From positions 1 to 64,000 of the forward strand of contig NZ_CP049074.1 in NCBI RefSeq assembly GCF_013343295.1: a stretch of 64,000 bases of DNA. Direction: 5' to 3'. A program made the position numbers and the translations under genes. This document shows, one piece after another, positions 4,448 to 45,097 of this stretch. The notes beneath the pieces were generated by a model. The model ran no database searches. It was not told the DNA's origin and saw nothing but the letters and a program-made list of their open reading frames with translations. The DNA comes from Metallosphaera tengchongensis (GTDB taxonomy: Archaea > Thermoproteota > Thermoprotei_A > Sulfolobales > Sulfolobaceae). Numbering within the stretch: the first letter of the stretch is position 1; each line of letters opens with the position of its first letter.

Positions 4448-6022
4448 TTACTCCCCTGAGTCCTTTTTAGTATTCCCCTCAAGCTGTTCCTCTCTGACCA
4501 GGTTTATTCTAGTTCCAACTTTATTCATGATATGAGGCCTCTTCTTAGCTATCCAAATGGTGTAGAGGACTGAGAAAGCTAAGAAGGCGAAACCTGTAAT
4601 TACAGCCTGAGTTACTGGGAAAACTGGAGGGTAAACACTCTCGTAGAGCACGAAGGCGAAGATCAAGGTAGCTACGGTCGGGAGTACGTAGTGCTGTATT
4701 GGGTGGGCTATAACGTTAAGACCTCTATGTACCTCCTTTAACCTTCTAAAAAGTACGGTGACTGAGGTATTCATCATCACGTGGGCTATTACCAGCCCGA
4801 CCAAGGCAATTGTCGTCAAATAGTCGAACGCGTTCTCCAACGCGTTGACTACTTCATTGGAAGTCGCACTCAGTGTAAACATTTGTACTGGAGTCAGTCC
4901 AGAGAAGTAACCTACAACGAAACCTGTTGCGATTGCTATTACTGTGGACGTTATGCCTACGAAAGCTAAGGATTTAGTCGGAGTGATGAATCTCTTGCTC
5001 ACGTACGAGAAGAACTTTGGTATTACACCGTCTCTAGCCATGGCAAAGTAAACCCTCCCGGCGTTGGATTGCATTGCTACACTATCGGAGAAAGCAGAGT
5101 TGAAGGCGAAAAGCGCGAGCAGGAGTCCACCTATGATCCCCATATACTCAGTGTATACTATGATACCTGGGATGCCATTAGTCGCGAAACTTACCATGTT
5201 GTTGACTCCCCATCCCACTGTCAACGAATATGCTACCTCAGTGAGTACCACACCTACCACTAGCACGCCCATGACTAATGCTTTCCTTATGTCCCTAGTT
5301 CTTTTGGCCTCCTCCCCCAATGGTGCTGAACCGCCATATCCAATGAAGCTGGTTATTCCAAATATCATCCCCAGCCCAAGGGCTGCAAAGGGCCCACCAA
5401 GGGACTTGAACTGGGAGCCGTAAATGTTACCCCAAGCTAAAGGATTAAAGACCTGGAAAGTGTTGTCTGGTGCTTTTAGGATTATTATCAGACTCGTTAT
5501 TGCCAAGAAAATCAGTTCTGTTATTGCTGCATACCTTATATACTTCATCTGGGGTCTTATTCCGACCATGGCCAGACCTATTGGCGCCAGCACAAAGATG
5601 GCAATGAAGGGAATCCATATCCAACCTGGTAACTGAATCCCCCAAAAGTAGTTAAGTATCCCAGGGAGAAGTACACCAGCAACATAAATTGGTATTGCTG
5701 CAGTGCTTACAATTTGGTAAAGTGGGTATATTAGCCCTACCACTATTGCCGCTTTAGGACCGAAGGCTGTAGCTACGTACCCGTAATAGCCTCCCGCGCT
5801 AGCATGTCTCTTCGCCAAATGATATAGAGTGTTTACTTCAAGGTACATTACGACCATGGCCAAAAGGAACGCCAAGGGGAGGAGCACAAAGGCGAAGGCG
5901 GCGGCTGATGTCATAAAGGCAACGGTATCGCATGCCGGTGCCATTGCTGCTATCTCCTGAGCTATCGCCTCCAGGGTACCTACCACGCCTCTTTTCAGTC
6001 TGGGAACGGATTCTTGAGTCAT
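4448..6022 (-). CDS. APC-family amino acid permease
   Basis: 524 residues with about 12 to 14 membrane segments. The N-terminal part (LEAIAQEIAAMAPACDTVAF) and the GGYYGYVATAFGPKAAIV stretch are characteristic of the amino acid-polyamine-organocation superfamily, in which the first unwound helix and a glycine-rich segment bind the substrate. Archaeal relatives import amino acids or related amines with proton symport. It is convergent with the Cys-Cys membrane protein gene (24 bases between stops). The start is the first ATG after an AT-rich region at 6030-6060. Substrate specificity cannot be read from the sequence. Confidence 0.85.
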   Translation of the reverse strand: MTQESVPRLKRGVVGTLEAIAQEIAAMAPACDTVAFMTSAAAFAFVLLPLAFLLAMVVMYLEVNTLYHLAKRHASAGGYYGYVATAFGPKAAIVVGLIYPLYQIVSTAAIPIYVAGVLLPGILNYFWGIQLPGWIWIPFIAIFVLAPIGLAMVGIRPQMKYIRYAAITELIFLAITSLIIILKAPDNTFQVFNPLAWGNIYGSQFKSLGGPFAALGLGMIFGITSFIGYGGSAPLGEEAKRTRDIRKALVMGVLVVGVVLTEVAYSLTVGWGVNNMVSFATNGIPGIIVYTEYMGIIGGLLLALFAFNSAFSDSVAMQSNAGRVYFAMARDGVIPKFFSYVSKRFITPTKSLAFVGITSTVIAIATGFVVGYFSGLTPVQMFTLSATSNEVVNALENAFDYLTTIALVGLVIAHVMMNTSVTVLFRRLKEVHRGLNVIAHPIQHYVLPTVATLIFAFVLYESVYPPVFPVTQAVITGFAFLAFSVLYTIWIAKKRPHIMNKVGTRINLVREEQLEGNTKKDSGE

Positions 6023-6498
6023 GTCTTTAGGGTAACCCTAATATATTTAAAGTTATCTATACTGAAGCGTGGAAATGATGGGTAGCTCTACTCTATCCTC
6101 ACGGAATTGCTTTGTACGATCTACTCCCGTGAGAGAGGGAGTGAAACATCTAAGGAAAATCGCGGTAGAACAGTGCCCTTTTAAACAATTAAGAATTTTT
6201 GAAGTCAATAGTTGAAATAATAGATTAAAACTATTTATAGAGGATTGGAGATTTCAATAAATTATTTAATGGTAGTGTACGTAACTTAAAAGTAATATAT
6301 CATATAACGTTTTAAGAGTACTTATTAATAAAAAGCTTTTATGTTGATTAATTCCGAACTAAACGATACAAGTTCAGTGTTGACAACAGCTTCAATCAGC
6401 TTAACTGATCCATCTTCGTCTCAAAACAGGTTGTTCCAGATGGATATGACTACTCGACGTAACTCTCTAGGCACTTTACCATCCCCGGGTTAGACGAA
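6023..6498. other. AT-rich intergenic region without recognised gene
   Basis: About 475 bases, very AT-rich from 6180 to 6340. It includes the promoter side of the permease gene near 6030-6060. I found no convincing ORF, RNA gene or IS remnant. Confidence 0.35.
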
Positions 6499-6912
6499 CT
6501 ACAGTGGCATAACTTCTCCAGCTGGATATAGGACTGATCTAGGTATTCCTGGACCCGGACCGTTAAAAAACACTGGGAACGTCATGTTAGTCCAATAACC
6601 GTTGAACACGTCAACGTTTACGTATTTTCCCAGTGGTAGAGGTGAGTTGTTCTCAACCAGATAGACGTCACTGTAACCAGCCATAATGGGACCCCCGTGC
6701 ATGAAAGTCTGATTCCCTATCACTATCCTCCCAAAGCTCCCATTATAGACCAGGTAAACCGTGCGGTTATCCACGTAGACTCCGAAATGCCCTCCCCCAC
6801 TTGGGTAGGGTTCACTCTGATGGGATACTTCAAACACCCTCACCAAGTCAGGGTAGATATACAGGCTTAACACAACAGCCAAAATTAACGCTATCCCCAA
6901 CAACCATTTCAT
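6499..6912 (-). CDS. Small exported or membrane-anchored hypothetical protein
   Basis: 137 residues. A clear N-terminal signal or anchor (MKWLLGIALILAVVLSLYIY) is followed by a soluble part rich in Tyr, Asn and Gly with several N-glycosylation sequons (NRT, NGS, NQT, NMT), as expected for a protein on the outside of a Sulfolobales cell. There are no cysteines and no recognisable catalytic motif. It lies between treY and the permease with its own AT-rich upstream region at 6913-6960. Function unknown. Confidence 0.65.
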   Translation of the reverse strand: MKWLLGIALILAVVLSLYIYPDLVRVFEVSHQSEPYPSGGGHFGVYVDNRTVYLVYNGSFGRIVIGNQTFMHGGPIMAGYSDVYLVENNSPLPLGKYVNVDVFNGYWTNMTFPVFFNGPGPGIPRSVLYPAGEVMPL

Positions 6913-6969
6913 AATTCAGGATCCTCACGTTAAATAAATACTTTTTCCAAAGTTAGAGTATATTGAAGT

Positions 6970-9090
6970 TCAACTGGACTCCTCCCTCACTAGGACCATA
7001 AAACCCCACGTCTTCACCTCGTTGACGTCAACCTCCCTTCTCTCCTCACCTGATAGCAGGTCTTTGTATGTTCCTTCCAGTTTCAGGTCTCCCGTTGCGT
7101 TTGTGGATAGTATTACCATCACGTCTCCCCTCTCGTACCCAAAGGGTCTGCCCTTATATTTACCTAACTTTCCCTTTCTCCTCAGCCTAAGCCCTTCCCT
7201 TATTAAGAACATCTTAAGCCTCTCGTCCCTTATACTCCACCCCTTGGCACTTTGAGGTAGACTCTTCATGACCTCCCTCAGGTGTCTGAAATCGACTGGC
7301 ATCCTGTTATCGGGGTCCGTGAGGAGGTACCTCCAGACCTCAGTACCTTGGTATATGTCTGGAACCCCAGGGCTTGTGAGCTTTAGCACAACTGTTATTA
7401 AGGAGTTCCTGTAACCCGGATCCTTTACCATCTCAACGAACTCGAGGAAGTCCTTCCTAAACTGGGAGTTGTTGAACGCCTCTTCCACAACGTCCATGAC
7501 CTTCCCCTCATATTCAAGGTTTGGATCCTCCCAAGTCGTATAAACCTTAGCTTCCCTTGCCACCTTCAACATGTGATCCCTCAACCTCCTCTTATAATCT
7601 TCTGAGAATTCCTCGAAACTCCCCACGAGAGTCTGGTAAAACCTATACTCCAGGTTCCTGTCGACCTTAGGTTTAAGGATGTCATGCCACCTCAAGACCC
7701 TTTCCCTCCACTCCTCAGGAAACTGGGAAAGAGCGGATATCCTAGCCCTAACATCCTCACTGAACTTGGTATCGTGGGTCGAAGTCGCGTTCATTGTAGT
7801 CTCAGCTCTGGTAGTCATGAACCTGTGGTACTCCTCCATGGATAGGGAGAGCCTCCTGACGTCGCTCCCTACTTCGTTGATGGAGATCAGTGGGTTATAT
7901 CTAAAGAGGGCGGTGTCCTCATAGCCCTTGGCGAAGATTGCTGGCATATACTGCTCTAACCTGGGTAAGATCTCCTCTGGTATCTTCCCTCCCTTGTCGC
8001 ACCTCCTCACTTCGTCCATACCTCGAGGGTAATAGGTCCTGTAGACCTTCATGCAAGAGAGGAACTCCACCAGGTATTCCTGGTCAACTCCGGTGAGCTT
8101 GGACAAGTACTCAATATCGCTCTTGAAGAGTGTCCTAGCTACTAGCCTTTTGCATTCTTCTATTAACCTGTCTGGATCCAGCTCCTCCCCCGTGAACTCC
8201 CTGAATATCTCTAGAATCCTTCCAGGCTCTCTTACCAGGAGGAGGTTGGCGTAGTTAAGGAAATCGTAGCCTGTAGTACCTTCTACTCCCCAGTCCTCCA
8301 ACCTCTCGTCTAAGGAGAGGATCTTCTCAACGTATATCGTCCTGTCCCCCACCAGACCCCTTAACCTCCTCAGGTACTCTCCTGGATCGAGGAGACCGTC
8401 CACGTGATCTACCCTAAAACCTGAGACTGGGAACCTGCTGATGTACTCGTGGGACTCCTTGAAGACCTCCTCCCTTTCAGCCCTCAGGGCTATGAGCTCG
8501 TTGACTGCAAAGAACCTCCTGTAACTTGGACCTTCCCTCCAGAACCTGAGCTCATAATGCTGAGAGGATAGGACCTTCCTCAAGTCCCCCGTCTCAGACC
8601 ATATCCTCTTCCCCTCCTCGTTGATGGGAAACTTCATACCCTTATACACAATCCAGTCGCCCTCCACGGAGATCAGTCCTTTCCTCAAGACCTCGTCCAA
8701 TTTATCCTCAAGTACCGGAAGGGCTATCCGATCTTCACAGTAGTGGTCAAAGTAGTCGTAGTATTTGCTCTCCCTCCAGTTCCTGAGCAGGTCCTGGAAC
8801 CTCCAGTTGGTCTCATGAACGGACATGTGATTCGGGACTATGTCCTGTATTACACCGAGCCCGGCCTTCTTTGCTTTTCTGAGCAGGTTTAAGTACGCCT
8901 CCTCTCCCCCCAACTCGTCGTTTATGGCGCTGTGGTCCACTACGTCGTAGCCATGGGTGCTCCCAGGCCTTGCCTTCAACACAGGGGAGAGATAGAGATG
9001 GGAGACACCCAACGAGGAAAAGTAGTCCAGGAGGTCCTCCACGTCCTTAAAGGTAAACCTAGGGTTAAGCTGAAGCCTGTATGTACCCAC
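6970..9090 (-). CDS. treY: Maltooligosyl trehalose synthase
   Basis: 706 residues, close to the usual archaeal TreY length. The enzyme isomerises the reducing-end alpha-1,4 bond of maltodextrins to the alpha,alpha-1,1 bond of trehalose. The GH13 fold is seen in YRLQLNPRFTF and LYLSPVLKARPGSTHGYDVVD at the N-terminus, then FRVDHVDGL (catalytic Asp), VEKILSLDE (general acid Glu) and STHDTKFSEDVR (transition-state Asp). The start is a GTG at 9090, 2 bases after the treX stop, so the two are translationally coupled. The product is released as trehalose by TreZ. Confidence 0.95.
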   Translation of the reverse strand: MGTYRLQLNPRFTFKDVEDLLDYFSSLGVSHLYLSPVLKARPGSTHGYDVVDHSAINDELGGEEAYLNLLRKAKKAGLGVIQDIVPNHMSVHETNWRFQDLLRNWRESKYYDYFDHYCEDRIALPVLEDKLDEVLRKGLISVEGDWIVYKGMKFPINEEGKRIWSETGDLRKVLSSQHYELRFWREGPSYRRFFAVNELIALRAEREEVFKESHEYISRFPVSGFRVDHVDGLLDPGEYLRRLRGLVGDRTIYVEKILSLDERLEDWGVEGTTGYDFLNYANLLLVREPGRILEIFREFTGEELDPDRLIEECKRLVARTLFKSDIEYLSKLTGVDQEYLVEFLSCMKVYRTYYPRGMDEVRRCDKGGKIPEEILPRLEQYMPAIFAKGYEDTALFRYNPLISINEVGSDVRRLSLSMEEYHRFMTTRAETTMNATSTHDTKFSEDVRARISALSQFPEEWRERVLRWHDILKPKVDRNLEYRFYQTLVGSFEEFSEDYKRRLRDHMLKVAREAKVYTTWEDPNLEYEGKVMDVVEEAFNNSQFRKDFLEFVEMVKDPGYRNSLITVVLKLTSPGVPDIYQGTEVWRYLLTDPDNRMPVDFRHLREVMKSLPQSAKGWSIRDERLKMFLIREGLRLRRKGKLGKYKGRPFGYERGDVMVILSTNATGDLKLEGTYKDLLSGEERREVDVNEVKTWGFMVLVREESS

Positions 9091-39835: not shown

Positions 39836-40495
39836 TCAGCCTCTAGGATTTAAAATTCTAGCCTTTATATGGTGAAACTCGTGGTCTGACAACAGGAGTT
39901 CTCTTACAGCTGACACTCCCCTTTCCTTCAGACTCTCATCAAATTGAAGACTGGACTGAACGCCTTCACACAAGCTCCTCCTTACGTTGTCCCTCATTTC
40001 CCCCATCTCCTTCACTACCTCCTTGAGGGAGTAAGCCTCAATGCCCAAACTCTCCGACAAGAATCTAGCCTCCCTTAACACTTTCCTCAATTGGTGGAAG
40101 TCCGTCGCTTCCCTAGCCTGGAAAAAGGCGCTCAAAAGGTTCTGAGCCACTAGGTATCTTGATCCGTAAAGTTTGGGAAGACGGGTTAGGAAACCGGATA
40201 ATCTCAAGGTCTTAGCGACGACTTTGTCCCTATCTATTTTAGGACATCCGTGGACATCCATGTCCCTCACCTTGCCTAAATCTTTCAGCAACCCCCTTGT
40301 AAGATCAATGAGCCCGTAGTCTCCATGCAGGGGGTAAAGAGCTTTAGCCACAACGTAGAACCTCCTTAGCTCAACCCTAGCGTCATGAACGCTCTCTTGG
40401 GAGAACCCAATGATCTCCAAGAAATTTCCCAAGTGCTCATTGGCGTAGTCCTCGGGCCTAATCAATTCTATCCCCAATAATTTTAACGATCTCAC
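39836..40495 (-). CDS. CHAD domain protein (polyphosphate-associated)
   Basis: 219 residues from a GTG at 40495, or fewer from a TTG at 40465. The CHAD histidine-helix signature is in SVHDARVELRRFYVVAKALYPL and LGKVRDMDVHG. CHAD proteins bind polyphosphate and often accompany polyphosphate enzymes. It is last in the operon below SixA, PPX and two kinase-like proteins, and overlaps the previous gene by 38 bases if the GTG is used. Probably cytosolic and positively charged enough to hold polyphosphate. Confidence 0.85.
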   Translation of the reverse strand: MRSLKLLGIELIRPEDYANEHLGNFLEIIGFSQESVHDARVELRRFYVVAKALYPLHGDYGLIDLTRGLLKDLGKVRDMDVHGCPKIDRDKVVAKTLRLSGFLTRLPKLYGSRYLVAQNLLSAFFQAREATDFHQLRKVLREARFLSESLGIEAYSLKEVVKEMGEMRDNVRRSLCEGVQSSLQFDESLKERGVSAVRELLLSDHEFHHIKARILNPRG

Positions 40496-41084
40496 TCCTA
40501 ACCACCTCGTAGTTCCTGGTGGTGTCCACCATGAAGGAATTAGTCATCAACGTCTTAAGGTGGTTCTGGAACTGCTCTAGATACTGTCTGTAGGACGAGA
40601 ACAGCTCCTCATTGATACAGATATCTATCCCAGAACTTAAGGGGTCCAAGCTCCCTTTTTTACGCAATATCCTCCTGATAACTTCCTCAGGCGTCGAGGT
40701 TAAACCTATGCTAATATCTGCCTTAGGGAGGGAGCTCAGGACGTCCTTCATCCAATCTATCTCCAGCCCCCTAGTTAGTCCCCATGCAATGAGGGTAGAA
40801 GTGTACCCGTCCGCTAAGGCAAGGAAACCGGCCTTTATCATTGGTTTCACCAAATTCTCGACCTGATCCGCCAGGTCAGTAACGTAAGAGAGGAATAGAG
40901 TCCTCCTTTGGAAAACTATGTCCCTCTTCTTCTTGGCTAACGGTTCTCCCATGAGCTTCGATAAGCCCAGTCCGAACGTCACTACCCCATAGCCCTGTTC
41001 CTCTAGGTACATCCTCAACGCATTAGCGTGAAAGGTCCTACCGGACCCCTCTGAACCCTCGAGTGCTATGATCTTACCTTCCAC
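40458..41084 (-). CDS. Thymidylate-kinase-like P-loop protein with altered Walker A
   Basis: 208 residues from a GTG at 41084. The fold is TMK-like: [20 protein letters not shown] corresponds to the P-loop, but the invariant Lys is Arg (G-S-G-R-T). The canonical dTMP motif (TREPGGT) is missing, while the DRY-like region reads LADGYTSTL. It overlaps the upstream TMK-like gene by 19 bases. It may be a non-catalytic partner, or use Arg; loss of Lys usually cripples phosphate transfer. The tmk annotation many pipelines would give is doubtful. Confidence 0.75.
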
Positions 41085-41704
41085 AGCTCGCTCACCCTTT
41101 TCCTTATCTCAACCTGGATTTCCCTAGGGGATCTGTTCCCATCAATCATGACAAAGCCTTCCTCCATGGCAATCTTATCGTAGAGCTCCAATACTTTTCC
41201 CTGATATGTAAGGAAACCCTCCTCAGGGTCAAGTCCAGGGAAAACGTCAGCTCCAGCCTCCTGCGGCTTAATTCCACGCTTATTTTCCTTTATTCTCTCA
41301 AGGGCTATCTCAGGGGTGACCCTGATGAAGAAGGTGATGTCCGGCTTTATGGCGAAGGAGTAAAGCCTTTTGACCCAATTCAGATCCACACCCCTAACGG
41401 AGTCCCTAGCGTAAGCCGTGTAAACGTACCTATCAGATACAATGGTGAAACCGCTCCTATACATGGGGAGGATAAGCTTCTCGTATCTATCAGCGAAGTC
41501 AGTGGCGTGTATTAGGCTAAAGGTCAGTGGGGTAAGGAGGTTCTTCTTCTTAGCCTCCTTTATTACCTCATGTATCCAGTCCGAAGAGTTCCACTCTGTG
41601 AGATAAGTATCAACCTTTGTCTCCAACCAGTCCTTTAGGAGCTTAGCTTGACTGGATTTCCCTGAGCCGTCTATTCCCTCAAAGGCTATCACTTTCCCTG
41701 ACAT
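41066..41704 (-). CDS. Thymidylate-kinase-like kinase, possibly archaeal polyphosphate kinase (PPK3-like)
   Basis: 212 residues from the ATG at 41704, which overlaps the ppx stop (TGATG). P-loop IDGSGKSSQ is intact, and [16 protein letters not shown] carries a DRY motif. In place of the dTMP-binding TREPGGT it has [10 protein letters not shown], so thymidylate kinase activity is not assured. A TMK-like polyphosphate kinase (PPK3) has been reported near ppx in Sulfolobales, and this operon matches that context. Either reading is possible, but the polyphosphate one fits better. Confidence 0.8.
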
Positions 41705-42966
41705 CAATAGACACCCAATGGAAACTTCTTCACTACAGTCTTCACGACCTTTGACATGGCCTCTATCTTTTCCAACTTAGAGTCCACCCCCAGCCTTTGA
41801 AGGTCCTTTTTCCTCACCTTAGAAGAAGCCCCCTTACACACAAGGGAAACGATGCCTAGGTCCCTCTTCTGAAATCCTGGGAAAAGGGAATAGGTCAGGT
41901 ACCTATAACACGCATCAAAGGGGTCGTCCCAGCCTACTTCCATAAAAATGTGGGAGACGTAAGCGGAAATCCCTGCAATCTCAGATCCGGTCAGCTTCTC
42001 AGCCTCCAGCCTTATCTCTCTGGGAGGCCTCACATTCATGAAGTAAGCCATGGACTCTAACCATCCGTCCCTCATTTCTGCGACCGACTGTTCCTCACCC
42101 CTCATCACCTTACCCTCCCTCATCCCAAACTCCGAAACTAGAAGGGAAGGAGCATCAAATAGACTCATCAGTTCTTCAATGACAACGATGGCTGCCTTTA
42201 CCGTGGGTGCCCTTTCCTTCCCTATCCCGGGGAGTGAGGAGATCTCCTGGAGGTTCATGGACCATAGGGTCTTGCTTATGCTCTTGACCTTCTCATGGGT
42301 CACTTTGTAGCCATGAACGTGGGAAAACTTCATACCATCCATCCTCATCAGCAATCTGCCTATGGATCTGACGTTACCGCCAGAGCCCACCATGTTTGGA
42401 ACTACCCAGCTTGGTAAGGAGAAGAGGTAATTCCTCACTTCCTTTCTCATCCCATCCTCGGATCCAAAGGTCTTTGTAAGCTTCAGTGCCCCTAGTGGGA
42501 AGTGGAATATCTTCCCCAGAGACCTATTCTCCACGTAGATCACCTCTAGGGATCCTCCCCCTAGCTCAAAGACCACCCCATCAGTAAAGGGTAGGGAGTT
42601 TAGGGCCCCCAATGCTGCCAGCCTTCCCTCCTCCTCTCCTGGTACTATTTGAATTTCCCAGCCCAACGCCTTAGAGAGCCTCTTGGAGACTTCCTCCCCA
42701 TTCCTAGCCAACCTGAACGCGCTTGTCCCTAACGGGTGGACAGTTTCCACACCCCTCCTCTCCAACACGGATCTGAACTTTATCATCACCCTCTCCGCTT
42801 CCTCTATTTTTTCCTGTCTGATCTCACCTCCTTCGTCAACGCCTTCCCCAAGCCTGGTAAACTCCTTCATGCTACCCAATGTCCTGAAGGTGTTCCTTTC
42901 ACCCCTTTGGAATAGGGATAGACGAATGGAGTTGTACCCTAGGTCTATTACCGCGACCTCGTCCAT
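41704..42966 (-). CDS. ppx: Exopolyphosphatase (Ppx/GppA family)
   Basis: 420 residues, the length of the Sulfolobales PPX. ASKHA fold: [19 protein letters not shown] (phosphate-1 loop) and [19 protein letters not shown] (phosphate-2 loop with catalytic Glu upstream). It hydrolyses terminal phosphates of polyphosphate. It is coupled to the neighbouring kinase (TGATG) and begins immediately after the SixA stop. With CHAD and kinase-like genes it forms a polyphosphate operon. Confidence 0.92.
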
Positions 42967-43437
42967 CTAAATCAGCTTCATTACCTTTTGGGTTAGAAGT
43001 AGCTCAAGTCTAGTCTTCTTCTCCACTTGGTCTACCTCAACCACCGCCAATCCTCCTCTCTTGAGCTCTACCTCACTGTTGGTCAAAGTCTTCACTAACC
43101 TGGAGAGGGACGGCTCGTGACCGACAACGAGTACCGTACCCTGCCTCTCCTTAAGCTTCTCGGCCAGAGCCGTGGGGTCCATATTCGGGCTGAGCTCTTC
43201 AGTGACCTCAGGTCTAAGGTCTAGACCTAGCTCCTCTAGTATAACCTCGGCCGACTGCGCAGCTCTCAAAAGCGGACTAGTGATTACTTGTTCAACCTCG
43301 TATCCCATCTCCTCAATGAAGTTGGCTACTCTCCTCATTTGCTTTATTCCCTTCTTCACCAGTTTTCTGTTCTCGTCAGCTATTCCCTCTGTGTTGGGTT
43401 CGCTCTCACCATGTCTTACAATTAGAATTGTCGTCAT
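42967..43437 (-). CDS. Histidine phosphatase superfamily protein (SixA-like)
   Basis: 156 residues. The RHG motif is ILIVRHGESEPN, and the second His motif is VLVVGHEPSLSRLVK. SixA-like proteins dephosphorylate histidine phosphate or other phosphoesters. It is first in the polyphosphate operon, with its stop immediately adjacent to the ppx ATG. Its substrate here may be related to polyphosphate or to a phosphorylated protein, but this cannot be read from the sequence. Confidence 0.88.
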   Translation of the reverse strand: MTTILIVRHGESEPNTEGIADENRKLVKKGIKQMRRVANFIEEMGYEVEQVITSPLLRAAQSAEVILEELGLDLRPEVTEELSPNMDPTALAEKLKERQGTVLVVGHEPSLSRLVKTLTNSEVELKRGGLAVVEVDQVEKKTRLELLLTQKVMKLI

Positions 43438-43716
43438 GTGATATATTAGATAGGTAGATATATAAGATTTATCGGAAACCTGGGCTTGAATGTCTAGCCC
43501 TCATCTGTGGATCATGGGTTCGAACTTGTTAGGATTAGACCCGCGATCACACCAGGGCTAGGGAATTTCAATGAGGTTTCTCCACGCATGGGTTAGTCGT
43601 TCAAGATTAGCATCACGATTAGTTTCCTCTGAGGGAAATCGTGAGATGAACATCTGGCAAGAAATTTTAACGTCCTGAACAAAAGTAGAAGAACATGTTC
43701 ATCTCTTCAATAACTA

Positions 43717-44103
43717 ATGCTGTATCAAATAGCCTTTGCTGTCCACATGATAGGTTTAATAGGATGGGGAGGGTTAACTACGGGAGCTTATTACGTTCTC
43801 CAATGGGGCAAGTCTGACGACTCGAGGTTGCTCCTAGCGTATAGGAAATTAGTATATGTGGAGATCGCCTCCTTGGTCGCTATGACCGTTACAGGTCTCT
43901 TCATGTGGATGGAATTGGGATTCCCTTCTTGGGTGTATCCTGCATTTGCCATGGCCCCAGTCTTGGGGGTGGGAGAGCTCATCCACTGGAGGCTAACTTA
44001 CGTTGGAGATTTAGCGATTTTCTTAAGGAGAATGAGGTACCTCTCTGCATTTTATACAGTTATAGCCCTTCTTCTGATTTACGACATGGTGTTCAAGCCT
44101 TGA
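43717..44103 (+). CDS. Four-helix membrane protein with histidine in helix 1
   Basis: 128 residues, four membrane segments (about 1-25, 42-65, 72-90, 105-125). His10 (FAVHMIGLIGWGG) is in the first helix, and EIASLVAMTVTGLFMWMELG and GVGELIHWRL contain further possible ligands. It resembles the 179-residue protein at 35280-35819 and CopD/DUF2269-type proteins in general. Divergent from the polyphosphate operon (279 bases). Function unknown. Confidence 0.6.
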   Translation: MLYQIAFAVHMIGLIGWGGLTTGAYYVLQWGKSDDSRLLLAYRKLVYVEIASLVAMTVTGLFMWMELGFPSWVYPAFAMAPVLGVGELIHWRLTYVGDLAIFLRRMRYLSAFYTVIALLLIYDMVFKP

Positions 44104-44365: not shown

Positions 44366-45097
44366 ATGAACAAAACTTTCCAAGGGGTAAATGTAGACCT
44401 CCAGTATTTAGGTCAACAGTTGTATCAATGGTTTATATCTAAAGGTTATCAGGCGCAGTACTTTCCGTCGGGTAACCAGGTTGTGGTTCAAGCTAAGAAG
44501 ACGGGTTTCCTGAGACACTTATTTGCGGCTGATAGAGCTTTCACCGTAAAAATAACTCAGTTTCCTGGGTACTTGGACGTAAACACGGGAATGGCGAACT
44601 GGATCAAGGCTGAGGGCGCAATAGACGCGGTCATAGGAGATCTAATCTTAGGACCGGTTGGTCTCGCGATTGAAGGTGCTGAAAGCCTGTGGAACCTTGA
44701 AATAGAGAGAGACATTATGAAGGAGATTGAAAGAATTTTGAGTATGGGTCAGTACCCTCAGTCGAATCCAAACCAGTACCAGTACCCTCAGTCGAATCCA
44801 AACCAGTACCAGTACCCTCAGTCGAATCCAAACCAGTACCAGTACCCTCAGTCGAATCCAAACCAGTACCAGTACCCTCAGTCGAATCCAAACCAGTACC
44901 AGTACCCTCAGTCGAATCCAAACCAGTACCAGTACCCTCAGTCGAATCCAAACCAGTACCAGTACCCTCAGTCGAATCCAAACCAGTACCAGTACCCTCA
45001 GTCGAATCCAAACCAGCAAAAGACATGCAATAACTGTGGGTACTCTAACCCAAGTAACGCTAGGTTCTGCATGGGCTGTGGGTCACCTCTGAACTAA
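44366..45097 (+). CDS. Zinc-ribbon protein with perfect decapeptide tandem repeat
   Basis: 243 residues. An N-terminal domain (1-127), no clear signal, contains [22 protein letters not shown], a DUF-like fold with amphipathic [19 protein letters not shown]. Then [10 protein letters not shown] repeats about nine times (residues about 130-217). The C-terminal zinc ribbon is [21 protein letters not shown] with four cysteines. The repeat is coded by a 30-bp unit without variation. The Pro/Gln/Asn/Tyr-rich linker is likely disordered. Function unknown; it may bring the N-terminal domain to a membrane or protein partner. Confidence 0.8.
44751..45016 (+). repeat. 30-bp minisatellite, 8 full copies plus one partial
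   Basis: The unit AGTACCCTCAGTCGAATCCA plus AACCAGTACC recurs without a single base difference from 44751 to 45016 (about 266 bases). There are no spacers and the reading frame is kept. It codes [10 protein letters not shown]. The lack of synonymous variation points to very recent expansion or ongoing slippage. Confidence 0.95.

Follow-up and report, generated by a model that had tools for sequence, protein, structure and literature searches.

A probable polyphosphate operon with a paired family of thymidylate-kinase-like proteins in Metallosphaera tengchongensis

The window considered here is a stretch of 64,000 nucleotides (positions 1 to 64,000 of contig NZ_CP049074.1, assembly GCF_013343295.1), which is the start of the 2.18-Mb single-contig genome of Metallosphaera tengchongensis, an archaeon of the Sulfolobaceae. 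From position 39836 to 43437 it carries five genes in the order SixA, PPX, A, B, CHAD, all five on the minus strand, which probably form a polyphosphate (polyP) operon; A and B both resemble thymidylate kinases. The following reading of the locus is probably right, and we give it a probability of about 0.7: A is a catalytic polyP kinase of the PPK3 type and B its obligate paralogous partner, and the two belong to a polyP operon with PPX, CHAD and SixA. The locus itself is already known, and the catalytic activity very likely is as well. The paired A/B family, which extends over many phyla and is marked in one clade by an arginine in the P-loop, is apparently undescribed in the literature searched; Hofmann et al. 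2026 may treat part of it. We see about an even chance that a widespread polyP kinase family, with A and B as its two subunits, goes under the label of dTMP kinase in about 13 bacterial phyla and many Nitrososphaeria, A being catalytic and B a phosphate- or polyP-binding, non-transferring half that has carried an Arg P-loop from an early point in the history of its clade.

Kinase A, polyphosphate synthesis and the dTMP pocket

To our knowledge, it was unclear for two decades how Crenarchaeota synthesize polyP, and the question has been taken up only recently, in a single species. The enzyme of that species, the Sulfolobus acidocaldarius PPK3 of Hofmann et al. 2026 (J Biol Chem 302:111283; preprint 2024), is said to belong to the thymidylate kinase superfamily and to be encoded beside ppx (Saci_2018).

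PolyP is present in Sulfolobaceae, which have no known bacterial PPK (PMC7831078), and overexpression of ppx leads to polyP-less strains of S. solfataricus and S. acidocaldarius (PMC7831078, PMC11677633). In S. acidocaldarius, a polyP kinase that belongs to a distinct family has been characterized (Hofmann et al. 2026, as cited in PMC13318637; preprint in PMC11677633), and PMC11677633 names this enzyme as responsible for polyP synthesis. In our comparison set of 31 Sulfolobaceae genomes, neither PPK1 (PF02503) nor PPK2 (PF03976) occurs in any genome (0/31 for each), and the positive controls were detected. It could be argued that A and B mainly use polyP, as a polyP-dependent nucleotide kinase which regenerates ATP or ADP, and that another enzyme makes the polymer; indeed, the PPK2 enzymes of the same superfamily favor polyP-driven ATP synthesis (PMC4748334). 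We find this quite improbable, because the Sulfolobaceae contain polyP and no other known enzyme that makes it, and because PMC11677633 credits the S. acidocaldarius enzyme with synthesis.

Both A and B match the Pfam profile Thymidylate_kin (95.6 and 42.3 bits, respectively, for a cut-off of 27). A first-pass annotation of this DNA, made from the sequence alone, took A for a candidate PPK3-type enzyme rather than a dTMP kinase and proposed to look for the true tmk elsewhere in the genome. The genuine tmk is found at G000:C1:687367 of the same genome, with a score of 129 bits versus 94 for A and 42 for B, and a separate tmk is present in 31/31 Sulfolobaceae genomes. The annotation also put forward that A and B lack the TREPGGT motif of dTMP kinases. 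They do lack it, but the argument is invalid in this lineage, since the genuine tmk has TSEPFT instead; the absence of the motif was therefore dropped as proof against A being a dTMP kinase, and the residues of the dTMP pocket were used instead.

These residues (E40, F74, R78, Y108 and Q109 in the numbering of E. coli Tmk) are kept in 30/30 Sulfolobaceae tmk proteins. Their equivalents in effectively all 106 A sequences are S, H, F, R and D (Ser42, His67, Phe71, Arg101 and Asp102 in the numbering of A), and these sequences also have a WNS insert. The complete set of A-type pocket residues recurs in 19/19 further A proteins from Nitrososphaeria, which were fetched by profile and not by motif. 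The replaced pocket, the separate tmk and the absence of PPK1 and PPK2 thus support the assignment of A to the PPK3 type. Within the archaeal class of the window A occurs only in Sulfolobaceae, and the weak matches in other families (1e-26 to 1e-28) score like ordinary tmk. The AlphaFold model of A has a pLDDT (predicted local distance difference test) of 94.4, and the A orthologue of S. tokodaii, ST1543 (E 7e-109), has structures in the PDB (2plr, 4nzy, 4rzx, 5h70).

Kinase B and the A–B pair in Archaea and Bacteria

The Walker A motif is GIDGSGKSS in A and GSEGSGRTF in B, which bears out the G-S-G-R-T that the first-pass annotation had read in the second kinase. It had suggested to check whether this arginine is conserved across Sulfolobales. 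The residue is not fixed in Sulfolobaceae (16 Arg and 9 Lys in 25 B proteins), and the presence of Lys in 9/25 rules out that Arg is a strict trait of the Sulfolobales. Outside this family, Arg is found in 67/78 loci and Lys in 11, all of them among the 12 Gastranaerophilales-like loci; in the further Nitrososphaeria proteins it is Arg in 19/19, with 0 Lys. The Lys-to-Arg change is a mark of the B clade across many phyla. The distribution of Arg and Lys on the B tree requires at least four changes, and the arrangement of the tree suggests that two of them are returns to Lys inside the Sulfolobaceae.

In Sulfolobaceae, the arginine of the DRY motif is replaced by glycine (DGY), Arg74 by Gln and Arg101 by Trp, each in 25/25 B proteins, and the P-loop Asp is kept in 0/25. 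In these proteins the change of the acceptor site from DRY to DGY is a stronger loss than the Walker A arginine. B diverges faster than A (mean pairwise identity of 58% versus 71% in Sulfolobaceae), and AlphaFold models it with the fold of thymidylate kinases (pLDDT 89.8); the S. tokodaii A orthologue is the nearest structure (TM, template modelling score, 0.88). The changed residues of the P-loop and of the acceptor site support the earlier proposal of a catalytically altered partner; judged by its residues, B is most plausibly a partner subunit that is non-catalytic or modified. It is unlikely that B has instead an enzyme activity of its own, in which an Arg P-loop serves another substrate. 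Most catalytic residues are indeed kept outside Sulfolobaceae (P-loop Asp in 78/79, DRY Arg in 78/79, and the Glu and Arg of the lid), and Lys is present in 9/25 Sulfolobaceae and 11/12 Gastranaerophilales-like B proteins, but against it stand the loss of three arginines in every Sulfolobaceae B and its faster divergence.

About 85,000 prokaryote genomes were scanned with an alignment of A, which gave at least 535 relatives, and the best 80 loci were analyzed (L130–L209; full-length match, at least 43% identity; L130 is itself from Sulfolobaceae). The patterns EGIDGSGK and TEWNSS[ED]W were used to select them; this choice accounts in part for the Lys and the WNS seen in bacterial A, and it leaves the other positions of A and the whole of B unaffected. 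As titled in the records, the best 80 loci come from Nitrososphaerota and 13 or 14 bacterial phyla: Acidobacteriota, Nitrospirota, Melainabacteria (Gastranaerophilales), Planctomycetota, Verrucomicrobiota, Chloroflexota, Myxococcota, Armatimonadota, Actinomycetota, Ignavibacteriota, Hydrogenedentota, Eiseniibacteriota, Pseudomonadota and one doubtful Bacillota record. The pair of L149, titled Clostridiaceae bacterium, groups with those of Gastranaerophilales, and this title may be wrong. A second thymidylate-kinase-like gene lies close to A in 79/80 loci; the exception is L185, which has none within 3.5 kb after A. The scan rules out that the pair is confined to Sulfolobaceae, and the module is not specific to Sulfolobales.

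Among 200 genomes of Nitrososphaeria, 49 encode A, and B is present in 49/49 of those; in 47/49 the two genes share a contig and are separated by no more than about 0.5 kb. In another arrangement, seen in the Nitrososphaeria genome G398 (L252, L253), A stands alone and B lies 200 kb off, beside PPX, SixA and CHAD.

In a tree of 122 proteins, A and B form sister clades (ultrafast bootstrap, UFBoot, of 94 and 95) apart from tmk (100); they stem from one old A–B duplication that preceded the spread of the pair over Archaea and Bacteria. PPK1 is present in 10/50 genomes that have A and B; this count comes with no baseline rate, hence no mutual exclusion is claimed.

The operon, its decay and its linkage

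The first-pass annotation described five overlapping or abutting genes, and all are present in the order it gave: SixA and PPX abut, and the overlaps are of 4 nt between PPX and A, 19 nt between A and B and 38 nt between B and CHAD (Table 1). SixA, which has an RHGES motif, and PPX exceed the Pfam cut-offs for His_Phos_1 and Ppx-GppA, respectively. A and B co-occur in the same 26/31 Sulfolobaceae genomes, in the order SixA-PPX-A-B-CHAD, and both are absent in 5/31. The recurrence of the same block in 26 genomes shows that it is not due to chance and supports the idea, already present in the first-pass annotation, that it is a polyP operon. Orthologues of PPX are found in 28/31 genomes and those of CHAD in 27/31; in genome G042, the A and B orthologues adjoin ppx.

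Table 1. Features of the polyP locus (window coordinates)
Feature	Position	Strand	Remark
SixA-like phosphohistidine phosphatase of histidine phosphatase branch 1; the operon begins with this gene	42967..43437	-	Pfam PF00300, 57.4 bits
PPX, exopolyphosphatase (Ppx/GppA)	41704..42966	-	Pfam PF02541, 145.6 bits
Kinase A, Walker A intact (GIDGSGKSS), probable PPK3-type catalytic polyphosphate kinase	41066..41707	-	
Kinase-like B (Arg for the Walker A Lys, DGY for DRY), probably a non-catalytic partner for A	40458..41084	-	
Short protein with a CHAD domain, probably a polyP-binding module (HDARVELRR, KVRDMD)	39836..40495	-	
TATA-like box CTTATATAT, candidate single promoter, read from sequence	43459..43467	-	SixA starts about 26 nt downstream

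The operon module can decay, as seen from remnants in two genomes and broken genes in a third. In G059, which has neither A nor B, the start of PPX, with an internal stop, abuts the second half of CHAD (G059:C21:10212-11133), which looks like the result of a deletion that removed A and B from the operon. G119, also without A and B, keeps PPX as the only gene of the operon. In G120 (L065, G120:C1:1129500-1143500, at about 5320-8085), an insertion of about 2.8 kb divides B, PPX carries a frameshift and A is intact; by our reading, the open frames of the insertion look like mobile-element genes.

The CHAD protein of the window scores below the cut-off of Pfam PF05235 (19.6 versus 25.6 bits). It keeps the His-x2-Arg-x3-Arg motif which contacts polyP (HDARVELRR), and these columns are conserved across 24 orthologues. 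The assignment as CHAD-like is based on this motif and on orthology to the Sulfolobus CHAD. The short SsCHAD of S. solfataricus binds polyP with a dissociation constant (KD) of 45 nM (PMC6537752), and the proposal that CHAD is a polyP-binding module finds support in the binding shown for this protein.

The linkage of A and B to the other genes of the operon extends outside Sulfolobaceae. Neighbors were counted by profile, over distances of at most about 5 kb in either direction (many contigs end sooner). Among 79 non-Sulfolobaceae loci, PPX is nearby in 39, SixA in 29, CHAD in 26 and any of these in 51; among 20 further Nitrososphaeria loci, the numbers are 13, 17, 17 and 19, respectively. Fewer than one PPX match would be expected by chance in 79 such intervals, according to a rough estimate with 1–2 PPX genes per several Mb. 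These neighbors were confirmed by Pfam on samples, and PhoU (Pfam) adjoins one A–B pair of Anaerolineaceae. In a Phycisphaerae locus (L206:1907-4972, plus strand), a single open frame encodes both CHAD and PPX, with B on one side and A on the other. A Chloroflexota locus has beside its A–B pair an open frame with a helix-turn-helix, domain III of Ppx/GppA and CHAD (L187:6137-8089, plus strand).

The five genes could also make up a loose neighborhood of phosphate metabolism whose products are coupled neither physically nor in their regulation. In favor of this, the order and strand of the genes differ among the loci outside Sulfolobaceae, and A and B are 200 kb apart in G398. We nevertheless hold it somewhat unlikely, considering that five abutting or overlapping genes keep the same order in 26 genomes and that A and B are adjacent in 47/49 Nitrososphaeria genomes.

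If A and B belong to one polyP-making system, ATP at the intact P-loop of A would donate its phosphate to a polyP chain, bound in the acceptor site instead of dTMP. The reaction would be reversible, so that polyP could recharge ADP, and the basic stretch IKEAKKK of A may contact the chain. B would most likely pair with A via the dimer surface typical of thymidylate kinases, as the half of the dimer that binds phosphate and does not transfer it. PPX would degrade the chain, CHAD would bind it and SixA would contribute a phosphatase role. B may have the regulatory or scaffold function that the first-pass annotation suggested, and the products could form the physical unit of synthesis, degradation and sensing which it envisaged. 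In this scheme, the polyP kinase reaction of A, the complex of A with B and the role of B are the parts that we infer.

Several points weigh against A being a polyP kinase that works with B. In G120, the intact A stands beside a broken B, so that A may not always need B. PPX, CHAD and SixA are all lacking near 28/79 non-Sulfolobaceae loci, 12 of which are Gastranaerophilales-like. The S. acidocaldarius PPK3 is presumably A, B or both, judging from the locus, the organism and the title of the paper. A also exceeds the cut-off of TIGR00041, the NCBIfam equivalog of dTMP kinase (106.3 versus 83.25 bits), and the S. tokodaii A orthologue was deposited as a dTMP kinase, with ADP bound in 5h70. These last two points, along with the Thymidylate_kin matches of A and B, would suit a second dTMP kinase or a general nucleoside monophosphate kinase that is merely located in a polyP operon, B being its decayed copy. 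Such a scenario is very improbable: the dTMP pocket is replaced in effectively all A and kept in the separate tmk, the linkage to PPX, CHAD and SixA holds across phyla, and B forms an old clade that has stayed beside A in many phyla, unlike a pseudogene of recent origin. Bacterial and Nitrososphaeria A proteins score 84–90 bits with TIGR00041, narrowly above the cut-off (the margin in the A family is 1 to 23 bits), and this narrow pass is a likely source of wrong dTMP kinase names, probably on a wide scale.

Two other genes near the start of the operon are on the plus strand. A small membrane-like protein is encoded at 43717-44103, a position that is kept in several genomes of the same genus. 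The protein encoded at 44366-45097 has nine near-identical decapeptide repeats and a C-terminal zinc-ribbon-like tail; the underlying array (44750-45016) consists of 8.9 copies of a 30-bp unit which are 100% identical, and this suggests a recent expansion.

Significance and comparison with known systems

If A and B are indeed the subunits of one polyP kinase family, this family would supply the polyP-making enzyme that has been missing from many organisms with polyP and neither PPK1 nor PPK2. A large set of proteins named dTMP kinase would then be misnamed, and the polyP metabolism of soil bacteria and ammonia oxidizers would be underestimated. The role of a conserved P-loop subunit with Lys changed to Arg would be directly testable, by comparing A, B and A with B. 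For those ammonia-oxidizing archaea in which polyP-like granules occur without known polyP genes (PMC11082331), the A/B pair would be a candidate.

The cluster of SixA, PPX, dTMP kinase and CHAD reported for biomining archaea (PMC10892726, Figure 2) is the same locus in Metallosphaera and Sulfolobus, where it is noted as conserved. The part of that paper which deals with the cluster differs from the present description in naming the kinases dTMP kinase, and it discusses neither a polyP kinase role, nor the altered second kinase, nor a counterpart in other phyla. A and the PPK3 of S. acidocaldarius come from the same archaeal family, whose members have neither PPK1 nor PPK2; a Ruegeria enzyme which is classed under PPK2 has been called PPK3 as well. 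With the polyP-binding CHAD domain (PMC6537752), the window protein shares the His/Arg motif, and it differs by a score under the Pfam cut-off.

The PPK2 enzymes (PF03976) are, like A, P-loop kinases of the thymidylate kinase superfamily, A being a polyP kinase by our reading. They differ in that neither A nor B matches the PPK2 profile, and in that DRY stands in place of DRS. When the F. tularensis PPK2 was compared with other structures by Dali, the A orthologue of S. tokodaii (4NZY/2PLR) ranked first among those that are not PPK2 (PMC4748334), and this placement fits a polyP-kinase-like site in A. The best structural matches of A and B are to Tmk (TIGR00041 / PF02223), with which they share the fold, the length, the P-loop, the DRY motif and the lid; A is set apart from Tmk by its replaced dTMP pocket, and the true tmk lies elsewhere in the genome.

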